From Candidatus Latescibacterota bacterium (GTDB lineage: Bacteria > JAAXHH01 > JABIQT01), in NCBI GenBank assembly GCA_018667995.1, contig JABIQT010000124.1:1-8799 (forward strand): a DNA stretch of 8,799 bases, given 5' to 3'. Shown piece by piece: positions 2 to 8,471 of the stretch (positions are counted from its first letter, which is position 1; each line of letters opens with the position of its first letter). Made by a program: the position numbers and the translations under genes. The notes beneath the pieces are model-generated. The model ran no database searches. It worked only from the letters and a program-made list of their open reading frames with translations, and was not told the DNA's origin.

Positions 2-1138
2 GACCCTCTGCCAGTCATCAACATCGGCCTGTCACCATCTGAAAAGCCCGGGTCTAACACCAATCCATTCATGCGGAATTCGGCCCCGCCACCGAAGGAT
101 AAGGGAAATGTTCAGGCATTGATGGGAGCGCTGGGTATCAGCTGGAACATGTCACAGGTCGTCTGGGACGCCTATAATCCGCATCCAGACCTTTCACACC
201 TGCCTGAAGAAGTGGTGTTCATCGGAGCCGGAAACGAAAATCCGGACGCTTTCAATACGGCCATCGCCAGCACCGCCCCACTGCAGGAACTGGTGATGCT
301 ATTTCCCGGCCATCTACAACCGTCGGCCACGGCAGACCTCGACTTCCAGCCTTTGATTCAGTCTTCGGAGTTCTCTGGCACCTCAATGTATAGCCAATTG
401 GTACAGCGCAACTTCTTCGGCGCCGCCCAACTCGTACCACCTCAGGGCAGACGCCGCCCCAACCTGAATACATACACCATTGCTGCTCAAATCTCTGGTA
501 CAAGGACAAACGGTGACTCGGCTGACTCTCTCAACGTCGTTGTTGTGGCCGATTTAGATTTCATCTCACAACAGTTTTTTGATATTCGACGGATGGGCGT
601 CGGCGGTTTGAACTTCGACAATGTCACATTTTTCCTCAACGCGGTGGATGTCCTGATGGAAGATGAGTCTTTCATCGCCTTGCGTAGTAAGCGCGTAAAG
701 TATCGCACGTTGGAGTCGGTTGAGGCACAAACACGTGCGTATACGGATCGCAGGGCAGCGGAAGAGATCCAGGCGGAACAGGAAGCCGAACAAGCTCTAT
801 CCGAGGCACAGCGACGATTGACCGATCGTGTGAACGAGGTACGCCAGAGAGCGGATTTGGATGCCCAGACCAAACAGATCATGGTTCGTAATCTTGAGGA
901 AGTAGAAAATCGTCGTTTTGAAACCCTCAAAGGAAGTATAGAATCCGAGAAGGACGCTAAAATCCGCTCCAGCAAAGAGAATATGGAGCTCCAGATTCGC
1001 CAGATCCAAAACGCCATAAAGAACCTCGCCACACTTCTCCCACCTATTCCGGTATTCGCCCTGGGGGTCTGGATCTTCGTTCAGCGCCGTAGAAGGGAAA
1101 AGGACGCGGCGGTGGCGGCGAGAAGACTTAGAAGCTGA
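2..1138 (+). CDS. GldG-like ABC transport auxiliary protein, C-terminal part (5' end outside the window)
   Basis: The frame is open from base 2, so the gene enters from the left. The ATG at 71 lies inside the domain and has no Shine-Dalgarno sequence, so it is not taken as the start. The visible 378 residues look like the C-terminal half of the GldG/ABC_transp_aux family, named for gliding motility and found beside ABC-2-type transporters. Features in order (numbered from base 2): an LPVINIGLSP segment at 3-12; a QALMGALGI..W and VWDAYNPHP region at about 38-62; a VVVVADLDF strand at 179-187; FFLNAVDVL at about 210-218; a highly charged, probably coiled-coil stretch at about 240-340; one membrane segment at about 342-360; and an Arg/Lys-rich tail. 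The bulk should therefore lie outside the cytoplasm with the basic tail inside. The next gene is a DUF4340 protein 37 bases downstream, the usual partner. The transported substrate cannot be told from this sequence. Confidence 0.85.
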   Translation, partial: DPLPVINIGLSPSEKPGSNTNPFMRNSAPPPKDKGNVQALMGALGISWNMSQVVWDAYNPHPDLSHLPEEVVFIGAGNENPDAFNTAIASTAPLQELVMLFPGHLQPSATADLDFQPLIQSSEFSGTSMYSQLVQRNFFGAAQLVPPQGRRRPNLNTYTIAAQISGTRTNGDSADSLNVVVVADLDFISQQFFDIRRMGVGGLNFDNVTFFLNAVDVLMEDESFIALRSKRVKYRTLESVEAQTRAYTDRRAAEEIQAEQEAEQALSEAQRRLTDRVNEVRQRADLDAQTKQIMVRNLEEVENRRFETLKGSIESEKDAKIRSSKENMELQIRQIQNAIKNLATLLPPIPVFALGVWIFVQRRRREKDAAVAARRLRS

Positions 1139-1164
1139 GTACAAATCTACAGACAGATATTGAT

Positions 1165-1168
1165 GGAG
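1165..1168 (+). promoter_or_regulatory. Ribosome binding site of the DUF4340 gene
   Basis: GGAG lies seven bases before the ATG at 1176. It favours that start over the out-of-frame ATG at 1171, which lies only two bases after the motif. Confidence 0.65.
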
Positions 1169-1175
1169 AAATGCT

Positions 1176-2543
1176 ATGAATGAGACACAGAAGACCATGG
1201 TGTTCATCGGTGCCGCCGTTGTACTTGGTGTCCTGGCACTGCTCACCACCCCAAGCAATCCCACACCCGAAACTTTTTCGGACAAAGGGGAGATCTTCTT
1301 CCCCGATTTTTCAGATCCCAACATAGCGACGTCGCTCGAAGTTGTTGAGTTTGATCAGCAGACCGGGGTACCGAGACCATTCAAGGTCAGCTATCAGGGC
1401 GGAAAATGGACGATTCCCTCCCATCACAATCATCCAGCGGACGGCAAGGACCGACTCGCAAGGACCGCCGCCGGTGTTATAGACATTGCCAAAGACGACA
1501 TCGTTTCGGATAACACAACCGACCATGAGGCATTAAACGTATTGGACCCCGTTGACGAGACGAGTACCAAACTCTCCGGCAGGGGCAAGAGGATAACCAT
1601 CAAGGACAATGGTGGGAACACCCTCGCAGATCTTATCATTGGAAATCAGGTAGTAGGACGCGAAAAGTTCTACTATGTGAGAGTACCGAATCAGAAGAGA
1701 ACTTATGCCGCCCGCGTCGACCTTGATCTTTCGACGAGCTTCTCAGACTGGATTGAGAAGGACCTGCTTCTGGCAGACCAGGCCAAGATCACAGAAGTTA
1801 CGATCAAAGATTACTCCATAAACGAACGCAGTGGCCGACTCAACCAGCGAGATACCGTTGTCTTGAAGAAAACGGATGATACCTGGCGCGCTAATAGAAT
1901 GTCCTCCAGTCAAGAAGTCACTAGCGACAATATGGACAGCATGCTCGGGGCGCTCGACTCACTGACGATTGTTGGTGTGCGCCCTAAGCCGGATGGGCTT
2001 TCCCTCAGCCTCTCTAAGGTTGGAGGGGCAGGGATCAGCATTACTCAGTCAGATTTGCGATCACTTCAAAGCCGTGGCTTTTACTTCACGCAGGATTCGC
2101 AGCTGGTATCAAATGAAGGAGAAACCCAGATCAGGACCCAAGAGGGAGTCGTATACACCCTGCGGTTCGGCGAGGTGGTATTTGGCACCGGAGAAGCGGT
2201 GTCTGCCGGCACTTCAGCCGATGGTGGAGGAGCCGGAGGTCCCGGTGAAAACAGATATCTATTCATCACAACAGAATTCGATGGAAAGATGTTTCCGGAG
2301 CCGAAGAAGCCTTCCAACATGTCCTTTCAGAGTAAGGCGGACAGCACCTGGACCAGCGATGATCGACGCAACTCCCAACAATTCACCGACCACCAGACAT
2401 GGATCCAGCAGGTCGAAAAAGGGCAGACAATATCTGCGGATCTCAACACACGTTTCGCAAAATGGTACTACGTGATTTCGGCCAGTAGTTTTGACCGCGT
2501 GCATCTGAAACGCCGAGACCTCGTAACCCGAAAAGCGAGTTAG
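1176..2543 (+). CDS. DUF4340 domain membrane-anchored protein, partner of the GldG-like protein
   Basis: This 455-residue protein starts at an ATG with a good GGAG site. Residues 8-24 form a single hydrophobic N-terminal helix, an uncleaved anchor or signal anchor, and the remainder is hydrophilic and probably extracytoplasmic. A DUF4340-like repeat pattern is visible: a PFKVSYQGGKWTI strand at 68-80, an IIGNQVVGREKFYYVRV segment at 154-170, and a second unit with VVLKKTDDTWRA at 228-239. The C-terminal end RFAKWYYVIS...F..VHLKRRDLV (426-450) resembles the end of many GldG-associated DUF4340 proteins. A Gly/Ala-rich loop at about 343-358 probably interrupts the fold. The domain has no known enzymatic activity; its co-occurrence with GldG-type ABC auxiliary proteins suggests an accessory role in the same envelope complex. 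It sits 37 bases after the GldG-like gene, consistent with one operon. Confidence 0.85.
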   Translation: MNETQKTMVFIGAAVVLGVLALLTTPSNPTPETFSDKGEIFFPDFSDPNIATSLEVVEFDQQTGVPRPFKVSYQGGKWTIPSHHNHPADGKDRLARTAAGVIDIAKDDIVSDNTTDHEALNVLDPVDETSTKLSGRGKRITIKDNGGNTLADLIIGNQVVGREKFYYVRVPNQKRTYAARVDLDLSTSFSDWIEKDLLLADQAKITEVTIKDYSINERSGRLNQRDTVVLKKTDDTWRANRMSSSQEVTSDNMDSMLGALDSLTIVGVRPKPDGLSLSLSKVGGAGISITQSDLRSLQSRGFYFTQDSQLVSNEGETQIRTQEGVVYTLRFGEVVFGTGEAVSAGTSADGGGAGGPGENRYLFITTEFDGKMFPEPKKPSNMSFQSKADSTWTSDDRRNSQQFTDHQTWIQQVEKGQTISADLNTRFAKWYYVISASSFDRVHLKRRDLVTRKAS

Positions 2544-2573
2544 CGCGGTTTCCTCAAAGCAAGAGAGCCCTCG

Positions 2574-3377
2574 ATGCCCACACAGGATCAGGTCGACCAT
2601 TATAACAGCCAGGGATACATGATCGTAGATGATCTCGCCGATGGCGAAATGCTTCAGAGACTGCTTCGTGCCTCCGAGCGCGCCAAAGCAAAAGTGCGAG
2701 CTGGCGAGGTAGACGTATACACGCATTGGGCCACGAAAGATAATAAGGAGCCCTGGGCCATACGAGGTATTCTTGCGCCCGAATTCGACGAAACGGTTTT
2801 CGCCGAGCATATGCTATCCGATTCGATAATGAAGTACGTGCACTACTTCCTTGGAACAGAGCTGCGTTTGGGCTCCATCCTCATTTTTACCAATCCTTAT
2901 CATAAAGATTGGGGATTAGGATGGCACCGTGACCTGGGAAAGCAGGAACGTGACGGCTCCTATGAACAGGAGATGGCCATTCTGAACAAGCCCCAGTTCG
3001 GAATGCGCTGGCAGCTTGCGCTTGTCGATGATGCGTGCCTGATGCTGGTACCGGGAAGCCATCGCCGTTATAGAACCGACCATGAGCGGGAATGCTTAAT
3101 CAACGACGGACACGCCGATATTCCGGGTCAGATTGCGATCGATCTCAAAGCCGGCCAAGCCGCCATATGGAATGGCAATACTATCCACCGGAGCGTGATA
3201 AAAAAGGACGTGGAGCGACTTACCATTGCAGGTAGCTGGTCTCAGAATCGGGACAGCGATGAACCAGAAGAGACGGATGTGCGATTCACCTGGCGCCTCA
3301 AAGACTCTGTACGTGCCCATCTCCCTCAAAAAATGCATATCCATTACGATCGATGGCGTGCCCTCCAACTAGGATAG
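2574..3377 (+). CDS. Phytanoyl-CoA dioxygenase (PhyH) family Fe(II)/2-oxoglutarate oxygenase
   Basis: This complete 267-residue protein has the size usual for bacterial PhyH-family enzymes, which use Fe(II) and 2-oxoglutarate to hydroxylate small organic substrates. The N-terminus has the common opening QVDHYNSQGYMIVDDL (6-21). The metal triad is visible: HRD gives H118 and D120, and IHRS gives H205. R215, ten residues after H205, is the expected 2-oxoglutarate carboxylate ligand. The VPGSH segment at 159-163 is also typical. No signal peptide is seen, so it should be cytoplasmic. The start is the first good ATG, with only a weak purine-rich stretch (AAGAGAG, 2561-2567) upstream. It begins 30 bases after the DUF4340 gene with no terminator between them. 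The substrate is unknown: PhyH paralogues diverge widely, and the human phytanoyl-CoA activity should not be assumed. Confidence 0.9.
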   Translation: MPTQDQVDHYNSQGYMIVDDLADGEMLQRLLRASERAKAKVRAGEVDVYTHWATKDNKEPWAIRGILAPEFDETVFAEHMLSDSIMKYVHYFLGTELRLGSILIFTNPYHKDWGLGWHRDLGKQERDGSYEQEMAILNKPQFGMRWQLALVDDACLMLVPGSHRRYRTDHERECLINDGHADIPGQIAIDLKAGQAAIWNGNTIHRSVIKKDVERLTIAGSWSQNRDSDEPEETDVRFTWRLKDSVRAHLPQKMHIHYDRWRALQLG

Positions 3378-3381
3378 CGTC

Positions 3382-3414
3382 ATGAGCATCCCAAATCCCA
3401 CCGCAGCAGACTAA
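3382..3414 (+). other. Ten-codon open frame with its own ribosome binding site, in frame with the M14 gene
   Basis: An AGGA at 3371-3374 lies seven bases before an ATG at 3382. This opens MSIPNPTAAD and ends at TAA (3412-3414). It lies between the PhyH and M14 genes and shares the reading frame of the M14 gene. It could be a leader peptide, a former N-terminus of the M14 protein cut off by a nonsense change, or chance. The AGGA overlaps the last codons of the PhyH gene. Nothing shows that the peptide is made. Confidence 0.25.
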
Positions 3415-3428
3415 CAACTTTCTCGATT

Positions 3429-3432
3429 AGGA
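3429..3432 (+). promoter_or_regulatory. Ribosome binding site supporting a TTG start for the M14 gene
   Basis: AGGA lies nine bases before the TTG at 3442. The frame has no in-frame ATG between the TAA at 3412-3414 and the beginning of the conserved domain, so this site is the main reason for choosing TTG. Confidence 0.5.
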
Positions 3433-3441
3433 AGCATCAAT

Positions 3442-4731
3442 TTGCAGACGTATGGGCACAATCCCACTTGGGACACCGCTCGACAAAGTCTACCCGATCG
3501 AATCTTCGAAAACGACGAGATCGTATTGACGAGCAATTTTGAGTGTGGCAACGGTTATAAGATCCAGCGTCTACACGGAGGCGCATATGAAATCCACATC
3601 GAGCCTGAACCTGGCAATCATCACTTTTCAGGTAGCGGATGTTATTTCTGCTTCTCGGCTTCCAACAAAACCGACGAAACGCTGACGGTTCTGTTTGAGA
3701 TCAGGGCAGCCGACGGTTCCTGGGATCGGCAGCGACGTGAGAAGATCGGCGCCTTCCTCGAAGACCACCCGGGTGAAGTGCCCCCCTTGTCCTTCGAGGG
3801 CAGTTCGCGTTTTGCGATCGTGCGGGACGGTGACGACTGGTCTCACGTTCCTGACGGACAGATGCGCCGGGCAATGGACCATCATGGATTGGCCTTCTCC
3901 TTCGACCTGCCCCCCCGATCCGAACATCAAGCACCGCTCTATTTCAGCAACTATCATTGGTATCCCTATACGGAGATGTCATCGTACCTGAAACAAATGG
4001 CTGACGAGCACCCCTCGATTGAACTGATTTCGCTGGGCAAAAGCGTACAGGACCGCGACGTCTGGGCCGTAGAGTTAGGAAATGAAGCGGCAAACGCGCC
4101 GGTCATCATCTGTGCAGCGACACCCCAGGCCGATGAGATGGGCAATTGGGCATGTCGTGCAAACCTCGAATTTCTACTCGGAGGATCGGAGGCCGCAACA
4201 GCGATACTGTCGCGCCATCGTGTCTGTCTTATACCCCATCCAAATCCAGACGGTACGGTGCTCGGCCTGATGGTCACCGATGCCGCGGACAAGTTCCCCT
4301 ACTTCATGGGTTCAGAGACCATAGCGGGTGACCCCGATTCTCCCGTGGAGCAAGTGACTCTCTGGGAATACATGAAGCAGAAACGACCGTGGCTGTTCAT
4401 CGAGTGGCACTCCAATCATTGGCACTGGCGGCCCGGCCATACGCTCATACGCTATGCCCCACAGCTTATTTCGGATCCGGCGTTGCGCCGAGTCTGGGAC
4501 AACTGGGATCGCCGCCTTGAGGCCCTGCCGAACACATTCGATGAAGAGGGTGGCCGCACAGATCGCACCAACGCCTACACCATGTCAATCGGTCTGGGTG
4601 TCGCAACGGAACTGGACGGAATCCCCATCATGCTGAAAGTCCACGATAAATTCCCGCTCCGGGAAACTCTCGACTACGTGAATCGGTGCCTTCAGGCAGC
4701 AACTGAGGCGTTCGCGGACGAGATAGTTTGA
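3442..4731 (+). CDS. M14-type, cytosolic-carboxypeptidase-like metallopeptidase with a substituted zinc ligand
   Basis: This 429-residue protein starts at TTG. Residues about 30-165 resemble the beta-sandwich domain found before the catalytic domain in cytosolic carboxypeptidases (SNFECGNGYKIQRL at 31-44, then GCYFCFSASN and a FSFDLPPR strand). LYFSNYHWYPYTEMSSYLKQM (166-186) matches the junction with the M14 domain. In the catalytic part, ATPQADE at 226-232 aligns with the ARVHPGE-type HxxE zinc motif, so E232 is kept but Q229 (codon at 4126) replaces histidine. NPDG lies at 268-271. EWHSN gives the second histidine ligand, H323. ATELDG gives E390 as the likely catalytic glutamate, although alignment there is less certain. 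The Asn-Arg substrate-binding pair of classical members is not evident. No signal peptide is seen, so it is probably cytoplasmic. It may be an enzyme with an altered metal site or a non-catalytic homologue; the substrate is unknown. Confidence 0.75.
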   Translation: MQTYGHNPTWDTARQSLPDRIFENDEIVLTSNFECGNGYKIQRLHGGAYEIHIEPEPGNHHFSGSGCYFCFSASNKTDETLTVLFEIRAADGSWDRQRREKIGAFLEDHPGEVPPLSFEGSSRFAIVRDGDDWSHVPDGQMRRAMDHHGLAFSFDLPPRSEHQAPLYFSNYHWYPYTEMSSYLKQMADEHPSIELISLGKSVQDRDVWAVELGNEAANAPVIICAATPQADEMGNWACRANLEFLLGGSEAATAILSRHRVCLIPHPNPDGTVLGLMVTDAADKFPYFMGSETIAGDPDSPVEQVTLWEYMKQKRPWLFIEWHSNHWHWRPGHTLIRYAPQLISDPALRRVWDNWDRRLEALPNTFDEEGGRTDRTNAYTMSIGLGVATELDGIPIMLKVHDKFPLRETLDYVNRCLQAATEAFADEIV

Positions 4732-5009: not shown

Positions 5010-8000
5010 ATGCGCTTCCATGCGGACCTTCATCTCCATTCCCATTTTTCTCGAGCAACCAGCAAGAACCTGAATCTCGAGCATCTCTCTAAATGGGCTC
5101 AGTTGAAGGGCATACGAGTTGTGGGGACCGGTGATTTCGTCCACCCCGAGTGGATGGATGAGCTCAAGAGAAAACTGATCCCTGCGGAAGAGGGACTATT
5201 CAAACTCAAACCTGAATTTGATAAAGAAACGCGGCAGCAGATTCCCGGTCCGTGCAGTTCCCCCGTTCGATTCATGCTTACCGTTGAAATATCCAATATT
5301 TATAAGCGGCACGATAAAGTTCGGAAAGTCCACAACATTGTATTCGCTCCGAGTTTCGAGGCAGCCGAGAAGATCCAGGCCCGGCTTGATACCATCGGGA
5401 ATATCCGCGCCGATGGCAGACCCATACTTGGGCTCGATTCCCGTGATCTACTGGAGATAACGCTGGAATCAGATCCCTTATCCTACCTGATTCCGGCGCA
5501 TATCTGGACCCCATGGTTTTCCGCATTGGGATCAAAGGGGGGCTTCGACCGTATAGAGGACTGCTTCGGTGATCTTACCTCCCACATTTTCGCTGTAGAA
5601 ACAGGTTTGTCTTCCGATCCTCCCATGAACTGGCGACTGTCGCAGCTTGACCCCTATGTGCTTGTCTCCAACTCCGATGCGCACTCTCCGCCAAAACTGG
5701 GGAGGGAGACCACCTTGTACGATACGGAATGTACCTATCCGGACATTTACCGCGCGCTCAGTGATCCAAAAGACATGGGATTGGCGGGTACCGTTGAGTT
5801 CTTCCCCGAAGAAGGTAAGTATCATTACGATGGCCACCGAAAGTGTCAAACGCGACTTCACCCGCGCGAGACTATCACCCATAACGGCCTGTGCCCTGTC
5901 TGCGGAAAATCCGTAACGGTCGGTGTGATGGCCCGTGTGGAAGAATTAGCCGATAGGCCAGATGGGGCCAGGTCACCACGTTGGCGCCCGTACCGGAGTG
6001 TTATACCTCTTCCTGAAATAATTGGTGAGGCATTGCAGGTGGGGCCCGGATCCAAAAAGGTAGCGATCCAGTATGATAGATTGTTGTCGAAACTAGGGAA
6101 CGAGATTCAGATACTGATGGATGTTCCTCTTGAGGATATTCAGTCTGCCTGTGGAGACGTCATCGCGGAGGGCGTCGATCGGATGCGTCAGGGAATGGTG
6201 CATATCGCTCCAGGATATGACGGTGAATTCGGTAAGGTACGGATATTTGATGAGGGAGAGCGTGATACTATCCAGGCACAGACCAGCCTCTTTCAGACAC
6301 GTTCGACCGTGCCGACCAAGACCGTAGAAGCCGGACAAGATCCATTGCAGCCCGAGAATGAAATACCCGACCCGACAAAGGAACCAGATTCCGAGACCAT
6401 AGCTGTAGATCAGACGACCACGACATCCTCAGCAGGACCGTTGACTAGCACTGAGTCTATCTATCCGCCAGCGCTCTCTGATAGCGATGCTGCGGTACCG
6501 GATATAACCAGTTTGGCCGATGGCTTGAATGCGACGCAGATACAGGCTGTGACCTACCTCGGCGGCCACTTACTCATTGTAGCTGGACCCGGTACAGGTA
6601 AGACCCACACCTTGGTACAACGTGTGGCGTATCTGGCAAAAGCTGCGGGTGCACCGGACAAGATACTTGCCCTGACTTTCACGAATAAGGCGGCCGAAGA
6701 AATGAAGGATCGGCTTGCGCTGATTTTGCCTGATGAAGCCAAGGAAGTACGGGTCGGTACATTCCACAGCATATGTCTTGATTTCTTACGCGAGTGGGCG
6801 AAAGAACGTGAAGTCTCAGTTTCGTTCTCTCTTGCCACGCCGGAGGATCTTGACCATATCATACGCACCGTCTGGCCAGACGATACGCTTTCCCAGCGAC
6901 ACAATCGCCTGGACAGAATCTCCAAGTGGAAGGGCCATGGATATACGGAAGAACTACCAGAGGAAGTTCTCCAGTACAATCGGTTGCTTCGTAAGTACAA
7001 CCTCCTCGACTTTGATGACATCATATTTGAGACGCTAAAACTCATACGCGCTAGTGAGACGTTCAGGCACACCATCCATCAGTCGTATCGACATCTTTTT
7101 GTTGATGAGTACCAGGACATAAATGCAGCCCAGCATGCACTGTTGAAGCAGCTCGTCCAGTACGGCGTTCGGATCACGGCCATCGGCGATCCAAATCAGG
7201 CTATCTACGGATTCCGTGGTGCTGATTCCCGTTTCTTCGGCAGTTTTTCGGACGACTTTCCGGGTGCAAGAACACTATATCTTGCCGAGAATTATCGGTC
7301 CGTCGCTTCGATCATCGACGCGTCTTCCCAGGTCATCGCCGAGTCGGAAACAGCGGATACGAGCGAGGTGCCGCAACTAACCCCGACGCTCTATGGAGCG
7401 GGTCGAATTACGGTTCATGATTCAGCCACCGAGCCCGCCGAGGCTGAGTGGGTCGTGCATCAGATAGAACAACTTGTGGGCGGCACCAGCATGTTCTCCC
7501 AGGATTCAGGGCGTGTTGAGCGGGAAGCGGTGGCTGAACATTCGTTCGGGGATTTCGCCGTCCTCTACAGAATAAACAGCCTTCATACGCCATTGGAAGA
7601 GGCCTTTCAGCGGAGCGGAATTCCATACCACATCTCCGGTAATAAACCATTGATTCAACAGCCGGCAGTGATTGAATTGGTCACCATGTTCCGCCTCGCA
7701 CTGGGCTTGACTGCGACGACCGGAGCCGTTATGCGCCTTCTGCACACTCTGGTCCCGGGAGTTGGTGACAAAACGAAGCTAATGATCGAAGCCAACTGGC
7801 GACCTCAACCACAGGTTTCGTTGGAACACGTACGTAGTCTGATGGAAGTAGACAGGTTGCTATCCACAATTAGCCGGGAGGGGCTCCGTAGCCTGCTTCA
7901 GAACCTACGAACCATTACTGCACACCTCCGCGTTTCGGATATTGGGGCGGCCGTGACGCACGTGCCAGCCCTGGGCATTTGGGAAACCTTGATAGCTGCC

Positions 8001-8471
8001 AGTCCCGGCGCAGAGGACAGTCTTAAGAAGTTGACCAGATGTGCCCGCCTTGAGCAAAATGCAACCGCCTATCTGGATAATATATTGCTCAGCAGGGCTT
8101 ATGATGACTTCGGTGATGCCGGGGAACGGGTTTCACTGATGACACTGCATGCGGCAAAAGGTCTGGAGTTTCCGGTTGTGTTCATTGTCGCCTGTGAACA
8201 CGATCTACTACCACTTCAGTATCCTGGGATGGTGGCTGATATGGAAGAAGAACGTCGTCTATTTTATGTGGGTATGACCCGTGCCAAAGAGCGACTTTTT
8301 CTCGTGAGAGCCAGACGGCGAATGCTATTCGGCAGCGCACATCAGACTTACCCATCACCGTTCATTGCGGACATTGAAGCGCATCTCAAGCACTATGAGG
8401 TTGGCAAACCAGCACGAGAAGCCAAAACCAAAGCGGAGCCTCCATCACAGATGAACCTCTTTCAGGAATGA
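5010..8471 (+). CDS. Endonuclease Q (PHP nuclease) fused to a UvrD/PcrA-type DNA helicase
   Basis: This 1153-residue protein has two enzymatic modules. Residues 1 to about 415 match the EndoQ family, whose characterised members nick DNA 5' of deaminated bases. PHP metal residues are in place: H8 and H10 (DLHLH), D42 and H45 (GTGDFVH), E93, H108, H164 (IPAHIWTPW), E197, and D223 with H225 (SDAH). A zinc ribbon follows (H276, C279, C295, C298), then the EndoQ end with PGYDGEFGKVRIF (401-413). A Pro/Thr/acid-rich linker covers about 430-503. The superfamily 1 helicase then shows the Q motif (Q510), Walker A AGPGTGKT (525-532), VGTFHS (582-587), VDEYQD (698-703), GDPNQAIYGFRGAD (726-739), ENYRS (760-764), TLHAAKGLEFP (1045-1055) and YVGMTRAKERL (1086-1096). 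All motifs look intact. It is the first ATG in frame, with AGGG at 5000-5003. Two clamp-binding-like motifs are present: QTSLF (424-428) and QMNLF (1147-1151). The inferred role is repair of deaminated DNA: nick, then unwind. Confidence 0.9.
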   Translation: MRFHADLHLHSHFSRATSKNLNLEHLSKWAQLKGIRVVGTGDFVHPEWMDELKRKLIPAEEGLFKLKPEFDKETRQQIPGPCSSPVRFMLTVEISNIYKRHDKVRKVHNIVFAPSFEAAEKIQARLDTIGNIRADGRPILGLDSRDLLEITLESDPLSYLIPAHIWTPWFSALGSKGGFDRIEDCFGDLTSHIFAVETGLSSDPPMNWRLSQLDPYVLVSNSDAHSPPKLGRETTLYDTECTYPDIYRALSDPKDMGLAGTVEFFPEEGKYHYDGHRKCQTRLHPRETITHNGLCPVCGKSVTVGVMARVEELADRPDGARSPRWRPYRSVIPLPEIIGEALQVGPGSKKVAIQYDRLLSKLGNEIQILMDVPLEDIQSACGDVIAEGVDRMRQGMVHIAPGYDGEFGKVRIFDEGERDTIQAQTSLFQTRSTVPTKTVEAGQDPLQPENEIPDPTKEPDSETIAVDQTTTTSSAGPLTSTESIYPPALSDSDAAVPDITSLADGLNATQIQAVTYLGGHLLIVAGPGTGKTHTLVQRVAYLAKAAGAPDKILALTFTNKAAEEMKDRLALILPDEAKEVRVGTFHSICLDFLREWAKEREVSVSFSLATPEDLDHIIRTVWPDDTLSQRHNRLDRISKWKGHGYTEELPEEVLQYNRLLRKYNLLDFDDIIFETLKLIRASETFRHTIHQSYRHLFVDEYQDINAAQHALLKQLVQYGVRITAIGDPNQAIYGFRGADSRFFGSFSDDFPGARTLYLAENYRSVASIIDASSQVIAESETADTSEVPQLTPTLYGAGRITVHDSATEPAEAEWVVHQIEQLVGGTSMFSQDSGRVEREAVAEHSFGDFAVLYRINSLHTPLEEAFQRSGIPYHISGNKPLIQQPAVIELVTMFRLALGLTATTGAVMRLLHTLVPGVGDKTKLMIEANWRPQPQVSLEHVRSLMEVDRLLSTISREGLRSLLQNLRTITAHLRVSDIGAAVTHVPALGIWETLIAASPGAEDSLKKLTRCARLEQNATAYLDNILLSRAYDDFGDAGERVSLMTLHAAKGLEFPVVFIVACEHDLLPLQYPGMVADMEEERRLFYVGMTRAKERLFLVRARRRMLFGSAHQTYPSPFIADIEAHLKHYEVGKPAREAKTKAEPPSQMNLFQE
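8464..8467 (+). promoter_or_regulatory. Ribosome binding site for the second PhyH gene, inside the end of the helicase gene
   Basis: AGGA sits within the last codons of the EndoQ-helicase gene, nine bases before the ATG at 8477. The tight spacing suggests the two genes are translated from one message. Confidence 0.6.

Follow-up and report, generated by a model that had tools for sequence, protein, structure and literature searches.

EndoQ is an endonuclease that nicks DNA on the 5′ side of deoxyuridine (dU), deoxyinosine (dI), deoxyxanthosine (dX) and apurinic/apyrimidinic (AP) sites, leaving a 3′-OH and a 5′-phosphate (PMC4357722). The archaeal enzyme binds the sliding clamp PCNA through a C-terminal PCNA-interacting peptide (PIP) box with a dissociation constant (KD) of 55 nM. 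Deletion of this region abolishes both binding and stimulation, and stimulation requires an intact PCNA ring (PMC4858679). A beta-clamp motif in bacterial EndoQ was already pointed out in 2016 (PMC4858679). The window analysed here, the whole of an 8,799-nucleotide stretch of contig JABIQT010000124.1 from a Candidatus Latescibacterota bacterium, encodes a protein of 1153 amino acids (5010..8471, + strand) in which an EndoQ module is fused to a UvrD/PcrA-like helicase module, as recognized from the open reading frame (ORF) and from profile, PDB and Foldseek matches. A pentapeptide of the beta-clamp-binding type follows each module. The fusion is probably, at a rough probability of 0.8, a repair enzyme that incises and unwinds deaminated or abasic DNA while tethered to the clamp, each half having a beta-clamp motif of its own.

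Two conserved, putative clamp-binding motifs

The internal motif, QTSLF (residues 424-428; 6279..6293, +), stands just behind the EndoQ module, and the C-terminal motif, QMNLF (residues 1147-1151; 8448..8462, +), ends two residues ahead of the stop codon. The first-pass annotation of the window had placed both motifs at exactly these positions. It had also assigned them to the bacterial beta-clamp consensus and had correctly stated that archaeal EndoQ works with PCNA. Both motifs match this consensus, QL[S/D]LF or QxxLF (PMC12309361), at positions 1, 4 and 5.

Genome contigs and the genomes of relatives were scanned and yielded 87 fusions, of which 75 remained after removal of near copies; column statistics refer to an alignment of 62 fusions. 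The carriers, Moorella among them, are spread over Bacillota, Bacteroidota, Chloroflexota, Spirochaetota, Thermodesulfobacteriota, Gemmatimonadota, Planctomycetota, Latescibacterota, KSB1 and other phyla. The key columns are all conserved in at least 90% of the sequences: Q424 in 57/59, Q1147 in 61/61, L1150 in 59/61 and F1151 in 60/60. Positions 427 and 428 of the internal motif keep a hydrophobic character. Column entropy is 0.25 bit at Q424 and 0 bit at Q1147, against mostly 3.3-3.9 bits in the linker from residue 429 on. The alignment proposed in the first-pass annotation, in which the motifs should be conserved and the linker should not, thus came out as expected. Both motifs are conserved relative to their flanks, the internal one more weakly, and both are predicted to lie in accessible, flexible segments.

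Motif counts were compared with two kinds of background. The internal motif was sought at a fixed offset, 13 residues behind the EndoQ body, in a strict (Q-x-x-[LIM]-F) and a relaxed (Q-x-x-[LIMF]-[FLMIY]) form. The strict form is present in 40 and the relaxed form in 63 of the 75 non-redundant fusions, whereas 1000 within-linker shuffles gave the strict motif 0.06 times on average and at most twice, and the relaxed one at most three times. At the C-terminus, QxxLF within the last 15 residues occurs in 61/66 closed non-redundant fusions, 33/44 stand-alone EndoQ proteins and 10/12 split UvrD partners (12/12 in relaxed form), compared with none of 26 ordinary PcrA/UvrD helicases and 2/682 neighbouring unrelated ORFs of at least 250 codons. 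A 27th helicase, the sole positive of the ordinary class, was left out of it as a contig-edge fragment of an EndoQ-linked helicase (L101); the tree places this fragment with the window's own clade.

The linker (residues 429-500; 6294..6509, +) is variable and predicted to be disordered, and the basic tail (residues 1129-1146; 8394..8447, +) combines high column entropy with a predicted local distance difference test (pLDDT) score of about 40-60. An AlphaFold prediction of the fusion as a single chain gives pLDDT values below 50 at residues 429-444 and 446-494 and low values in the C-terminal tail. QTSLF marks the transition from a predicted helix (417-426) to a 66-residue stretch of predicted disorder (429-494). 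The expectation that both motifs would lie in unstructured regions therefore holds for the C-terminus, while the internal motif sits at the edge between helix and disorder. In the homologues 29-131 amino acids separate the first motif from the helicase, and the tail measures 9-32 amino acids.

Separate genes retain one motif each

Separate, adjacent and co-directional genes, with that of the helicase downstream, encode the two enzymes in Omnitrophota, Nitrospirota and one Desulfobacterota genome (loci L012, L017, L021, L023, L064, L067, L069, L072, L073, L078, L079, L081 and L082). The split EndoQ, of about 425-437 amino acids, terminates at QxxLF (e.g., ...KEGQLTLF or ...SEDQMVLF), and the split helicases terminate in a motif of their own (e.g., ...KDDEQLSLF or ...KEKQLTLF). 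Each enzyme therefore has its own putative clamp hook, and since organisms with separate EndoQ and UvrD keep both motifs, there is no need for one chain to bridge the clamp. Stand-alone EndoQ has the counterpart of the fusion's internal motif at its C-terminus, from which this motif was probably inherited.

The split forms of Omnitrophota group inside the fusion clade of the EndoQ tree, beside the window's own order; the helicase tree concurs, several forks being weakly supported. These pairs are best read as the fission of a fusion, the alternative being re-fusion. As they sit within the fusion clade with both motifs in place, the motifs have survived a change in gene organization. The pairs of Nitrospirota and Desulfobacterota diverge close to the base of the fused group and may represent the older, unfused state. 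Under either history both motifs have been retained while the gene organization changed. In several Omnitrophota the split helicase comprises only about 510 amino acids and, being shorter than the fused module, seems partly reduced.

The clamp of the host and its putative ligands

The genome from which the window comes has one DnaN, adjoining recF, which was aligned with solved beta clamps. It contains TDGHRLA, FPDYERV and C-terminal MPLRL segments, of the kind that line the peptide pocket of beta clamps. The replicative polymerase DnaE of the same genome carries QTSLF within RDKGQTSLFDVGDDDE, at ORF residue 916 (motif peptide RDKGQTSLFDVGD), a pentapeptide identical letter for letter to the internal motif of the fusion. 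Its position is presumably near the site of QADMF in the E. coli enzyme. QADMF is the clamp motif of the E. coli Pol III alpha subunit (PMC12309361). A DinB-type polymerase of the host has QDDLF near its C-terminus, and its MutS gene is truncated at the edge of a contig. Taken together, the conservation of the two motifs, the split operons, the absence of the motif from ordinary UvrD/PcrA and the identical QTSLF of DnaE strongly support the proposal of the first-pass annotation that there is one clamp-type motif per enzymatic module.

Both QxxLF-ending ORFs among the 682 background neighbours encode radical-SAM proteins related to Rv2578c/PA0069 and stand immediately beside EndoQ. One lies at L162:2744-3826 (+). 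The other, in L033, is on the - strand directly behind the fusion and has a faint match to spore photoproduct lyase. These proteins are possible candidates for a clamp-tethered repair partner of EndoQ.

The two enzymatic modules

The EndoQ module, a PHP-type lesion-specific endonuclease, occupies residues 1-418 (5010..6263, +). Residues 4-418 match PfuEndoQ (PDB 5zb8) with an E value of 7e-54, and a query with residues 1-430 retrieves the same structure at 2e-55, along PfuEndoQ residues 4-388. The Foldseek search with the fusion model returns 5zb8 for this part (TMt 0.88) and UvrD 2is1 for the helicase (TMt 0.83). Residues H8, H10, D42, E93, H108, E197, D223 and H225, together with the zinc-site cysteines C279, C295 and C298, are invariant in the 62 fusions; their assignment as PHP metal ligands and zinc site is by homology. 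Homology and fold extend along the whole PHP-plus-zinc-finger body, and the metal ligands and cysteines are in place, as expected of an EndoQ. The NCBIfam profile TIGR00375 matches residues 99-410 with 175 bits, under its curated cut-off of 326.6. All EndoQ relatives in 288 genomes likewise score below this cut-off, and the module of the window has no Pfam family match. Such relatives are thus probably under-annotated or named merely as helicases.

The helicase module, a UvrD/PcrA-like member of the superfamily 1A (SF1A) helicases, spans residues from about 503 to 1128 (6516..8393, +). It matches Pfam PF00580 (E 1e-63) and PF13361 (E 5e-38) and has the SF1A motifs and fold. The pcrA/rep profiles of NCBIfam match residues 503-1143. 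PcrA 1pjr (PDB) aligns with residues 504-1130 (E 7e-76) and the match stops at PcrA residue 649 of 724. The PcrA equivalog TIGR01073 scores 378 bits against a cut-off of 911. As this cut-off is missed and the similarity ends near PcrA residue 649, the module is classed as UvrD-like and not as PcrA. The absent PcrA C-terminal tail is the more telling of the two observations; the TIGR01073 cut-off is also missed by most ordinary PcrA proteins of related phyla.

Upstream of the fusion, positions 71-4731 of the window encode an ABC-transport auxiliary protein (PF09822), a DUF4340 protein, a PhyH-type dioxygenase and an M14-type peptidase, which have no obvious link to DNA repair.

Unequal motifs and alternative explanations

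The C-terminal motif is nearer to the strong consensus and more constrained than the internal one. In raw counts uncorrected for kinship, 54/61 C-terminal but only 22/62 internal motifs have L or M at position 2, and the corresponding counts of F at position 5 are 60/60 and 47/62. The difference in strict motifs (61/66 against 40/75) has a Fisher p of 2e-7. The C-terminal motif is thus probably the main tether, and the internal one a weaker or regulatory contact.

Several facts weigh against the fusion being a repair enzyme with a working clamp motif on each half. Among the 75 non-redundant fusions, 35 deviate from the strict internal QxxLF, mostly to QxxLL or QxxFF. About five fusions have lost the internal Q-pattern while the strict C-terminal motif stays, and four (L018, L054, L071 and L171) have no recognizable C-terminal motif. 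Since strict QxxLF is so often departed from and sometimes lost, certain lineages may have an internal motif that is weak or that they can do without. Furthermore, relatives are the source of the nuclease substrate, the helicase polarity and the sequence of steps assumed here. Within the window's own order the internal motif reads QTSLF, QTNLL or QIALL. The first-pass annotation had made its proposal depend on conservation among close homologues; this is borne out for the C-terminal motif and for Q424, while QIALL and QTNLL show that QxxLF is not fixed at the internal site. The QMSLL motif of E. coli MutS is a likely precedent for the QxxLL form; no paper on it turned up in the literature searched. 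MutS of E. coli has two clamp-binding sites of unequal strength, the weaker of which counted more for repair (PMC11253446), so a weak motif need not be an unimportant one.

A tentative elaboration of the doubly tethered enzyme is that one chain grips both pockets of one beta-clamp dimer, the EndoQ part holding one protomer and the helicase part the other, or that the two motifs compete and thereby switch the protein between cutting and unwinding. The fusion unites two motifs of different strength, a long flexible linker and a tail in a single chain, the dimeric beta clamp offers two identical sites (PMC12309361), and E. coli MutS offers the example of two unequal clamp sites (PMC11253446). The linker and tail lengths of the homologues do not preclude the gripping of both pockets, which makes bridging physically conceivable. 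However, split EndoQ and UvrD keep one motif each without sharing a chain, some fusions have lost the internal motif, and the unequal strengths fit a main tether with a secondary contact at least as well.

It is more doubtful that the C-terminal motif alone is the working tether of the fusion, the internal one being left over from the stand-alone EndoQ C-terminus and in decay. The lower strictness of the internal motif, its permissive position 2 and its loss in about five fusions that retain the C-terminal motif would all be expected of such a remnant. Yet Q424 persists in 57/59 sequences although the columns slightly downstream are random, which argues for continuing purifying selection, and QTSLF of the window is identical to the host DnaE motif.

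It is quite improbable that the motifs are conserved for another cause, with QTSLF belonging to the EndoQ fold and QMNLF contacting some other partner or the protein itself. The predicted helix at 417-426 overlaps the first residues of QTSLF, and a partner cannot be named from sequence alone. Against this, the conserved pattern at both sites (Q, two free positions, L and F) is that of the clamp consensus, and the identical pentapeptide stands at the clamp site of the host DnaE. Archaeal EndoQ keeps its fold when the C-terminal PIP region is removed (PMC4858679), and PfuEndoQ was crystallized as a 400-residue chain without the C-terminal tail (PDB 5zb8). A role of QTSLF purely as a fold element was rejected, as the stand-alone EndoQ proteins of this clade terminate at the motif or a few residues from it and the archaeal motif can be deleted (PMC4858679). 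Finally, chance resemblance, suggested by the shortness of the loose QxxLF pattern and the biased composition of low-complexity tails, is refuted by the linker shuffles (no more than 2 of 75, where 40 were observed), the background ORFs (2/682) and the near-invariance of the columns across phyla.

A possible incise-and-unwind pathway

If the fusion is a clamp-tethered incise-and-unwind enzyme, the following sequence of events may be envisaged from its relatives. The beta clamp would bring the protein to DNA, where the EndoQ module would nick on the 5′ side of dU, dI, dX or an AP site, producing a 3′-OH and a lesion-bearing 5′ end. The tethered helicase, moving 3′-5′ on the intact strand, would load at the EndoQ nick and peel off the lesion-bearing strand, after which a polymerase could take over the same clamp for resynthesis. 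In mismatch repair, UvrD unwinds in the 3′-5′ direction from the nick made by MutH (PMC11253446).

As to the step that follows the EndoQ cut in bacteria, the fusion and the paired operons suggest that a dedicated UvrD-like helicase on the same clamp removes the damaged strand ahead of resynthesis. The retention of both motifs across many phyla suggests that clamp-guided cutting and unwinding form one coupled repair pathway. A bolder proposition, advanced here with considerable reserve, is a widespread bacterial pathway for the excision of deaminated bases in which EndoQ incision and UvrD-like strand removal, on one chain or in one operon, are coordinated through both pockets of one beta clamp, either simultaneously or sequentially.

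Comparison with known systems

The literature searched, which covered few subscription papers, yielded no description of the EndoQ-UvrD fusion, of a clamp motif on its UvrD-like helicase or of two such motifs together. These three features may thus be new, and the clamp motif of EndoQ is known. The archaeal enzymes (PfuEndoQ PF1551 and TkoEndoQ TK0887) share the fold of the fusion's EndoQ module and likewise carry a clamp motif behind the catalytic part. However, theirs is a PCNA-directed PIP box (QRSITEFL, QRTLLQYI) that forms the extreme end of a stand-alone enzyme (PMC4858679), whereas the fusion has a bacterial QxxLF pentapeptide in mid-chain and a helicase attached. Stand-alone bacterial EndoQ (e.g., of Bacillus pumilus, with a homologue in B. 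subtilis) shares the beta-clamp consensus but has it at the C-terminus and has no helicase on the same chain.

The helicase module has its SF1A core in common with PcrA and UvrD. The C-terminal Tudor-type domain of PcrA binds RNA polymerase (PMC5397179), and ordinary PcrA/UvrD proteins from the same and related genomes end in this Tudor-type region without a clamp motif, so that the motif was rejected as a general property of UvrD helicases (0/26). The fusion, in contrast, has a short basic tail with a clamp motif in place of the RNA-polymerase-interaction domain. From this difference at the ends, its helicase seems to have a clamp-linked instead of a transcription-linked recruitment element, which suggests a way in which one family of helicases is steered towards transcription- or replication-linked repair.

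Mismatch repair by MutS/MutL and UvrD is alike in outline, with clamp-bound recognition and nicking, UvrD-type unwinding and resynthesis, and its MutS likewise has two unequal clamp sites (PMC11253446). In the EndoQ-helicase system, by contrast, recognition, nicking and unwinding would be placed on one chain or in one operon, and EndoQ would read a damaged base instead of a mismatch.

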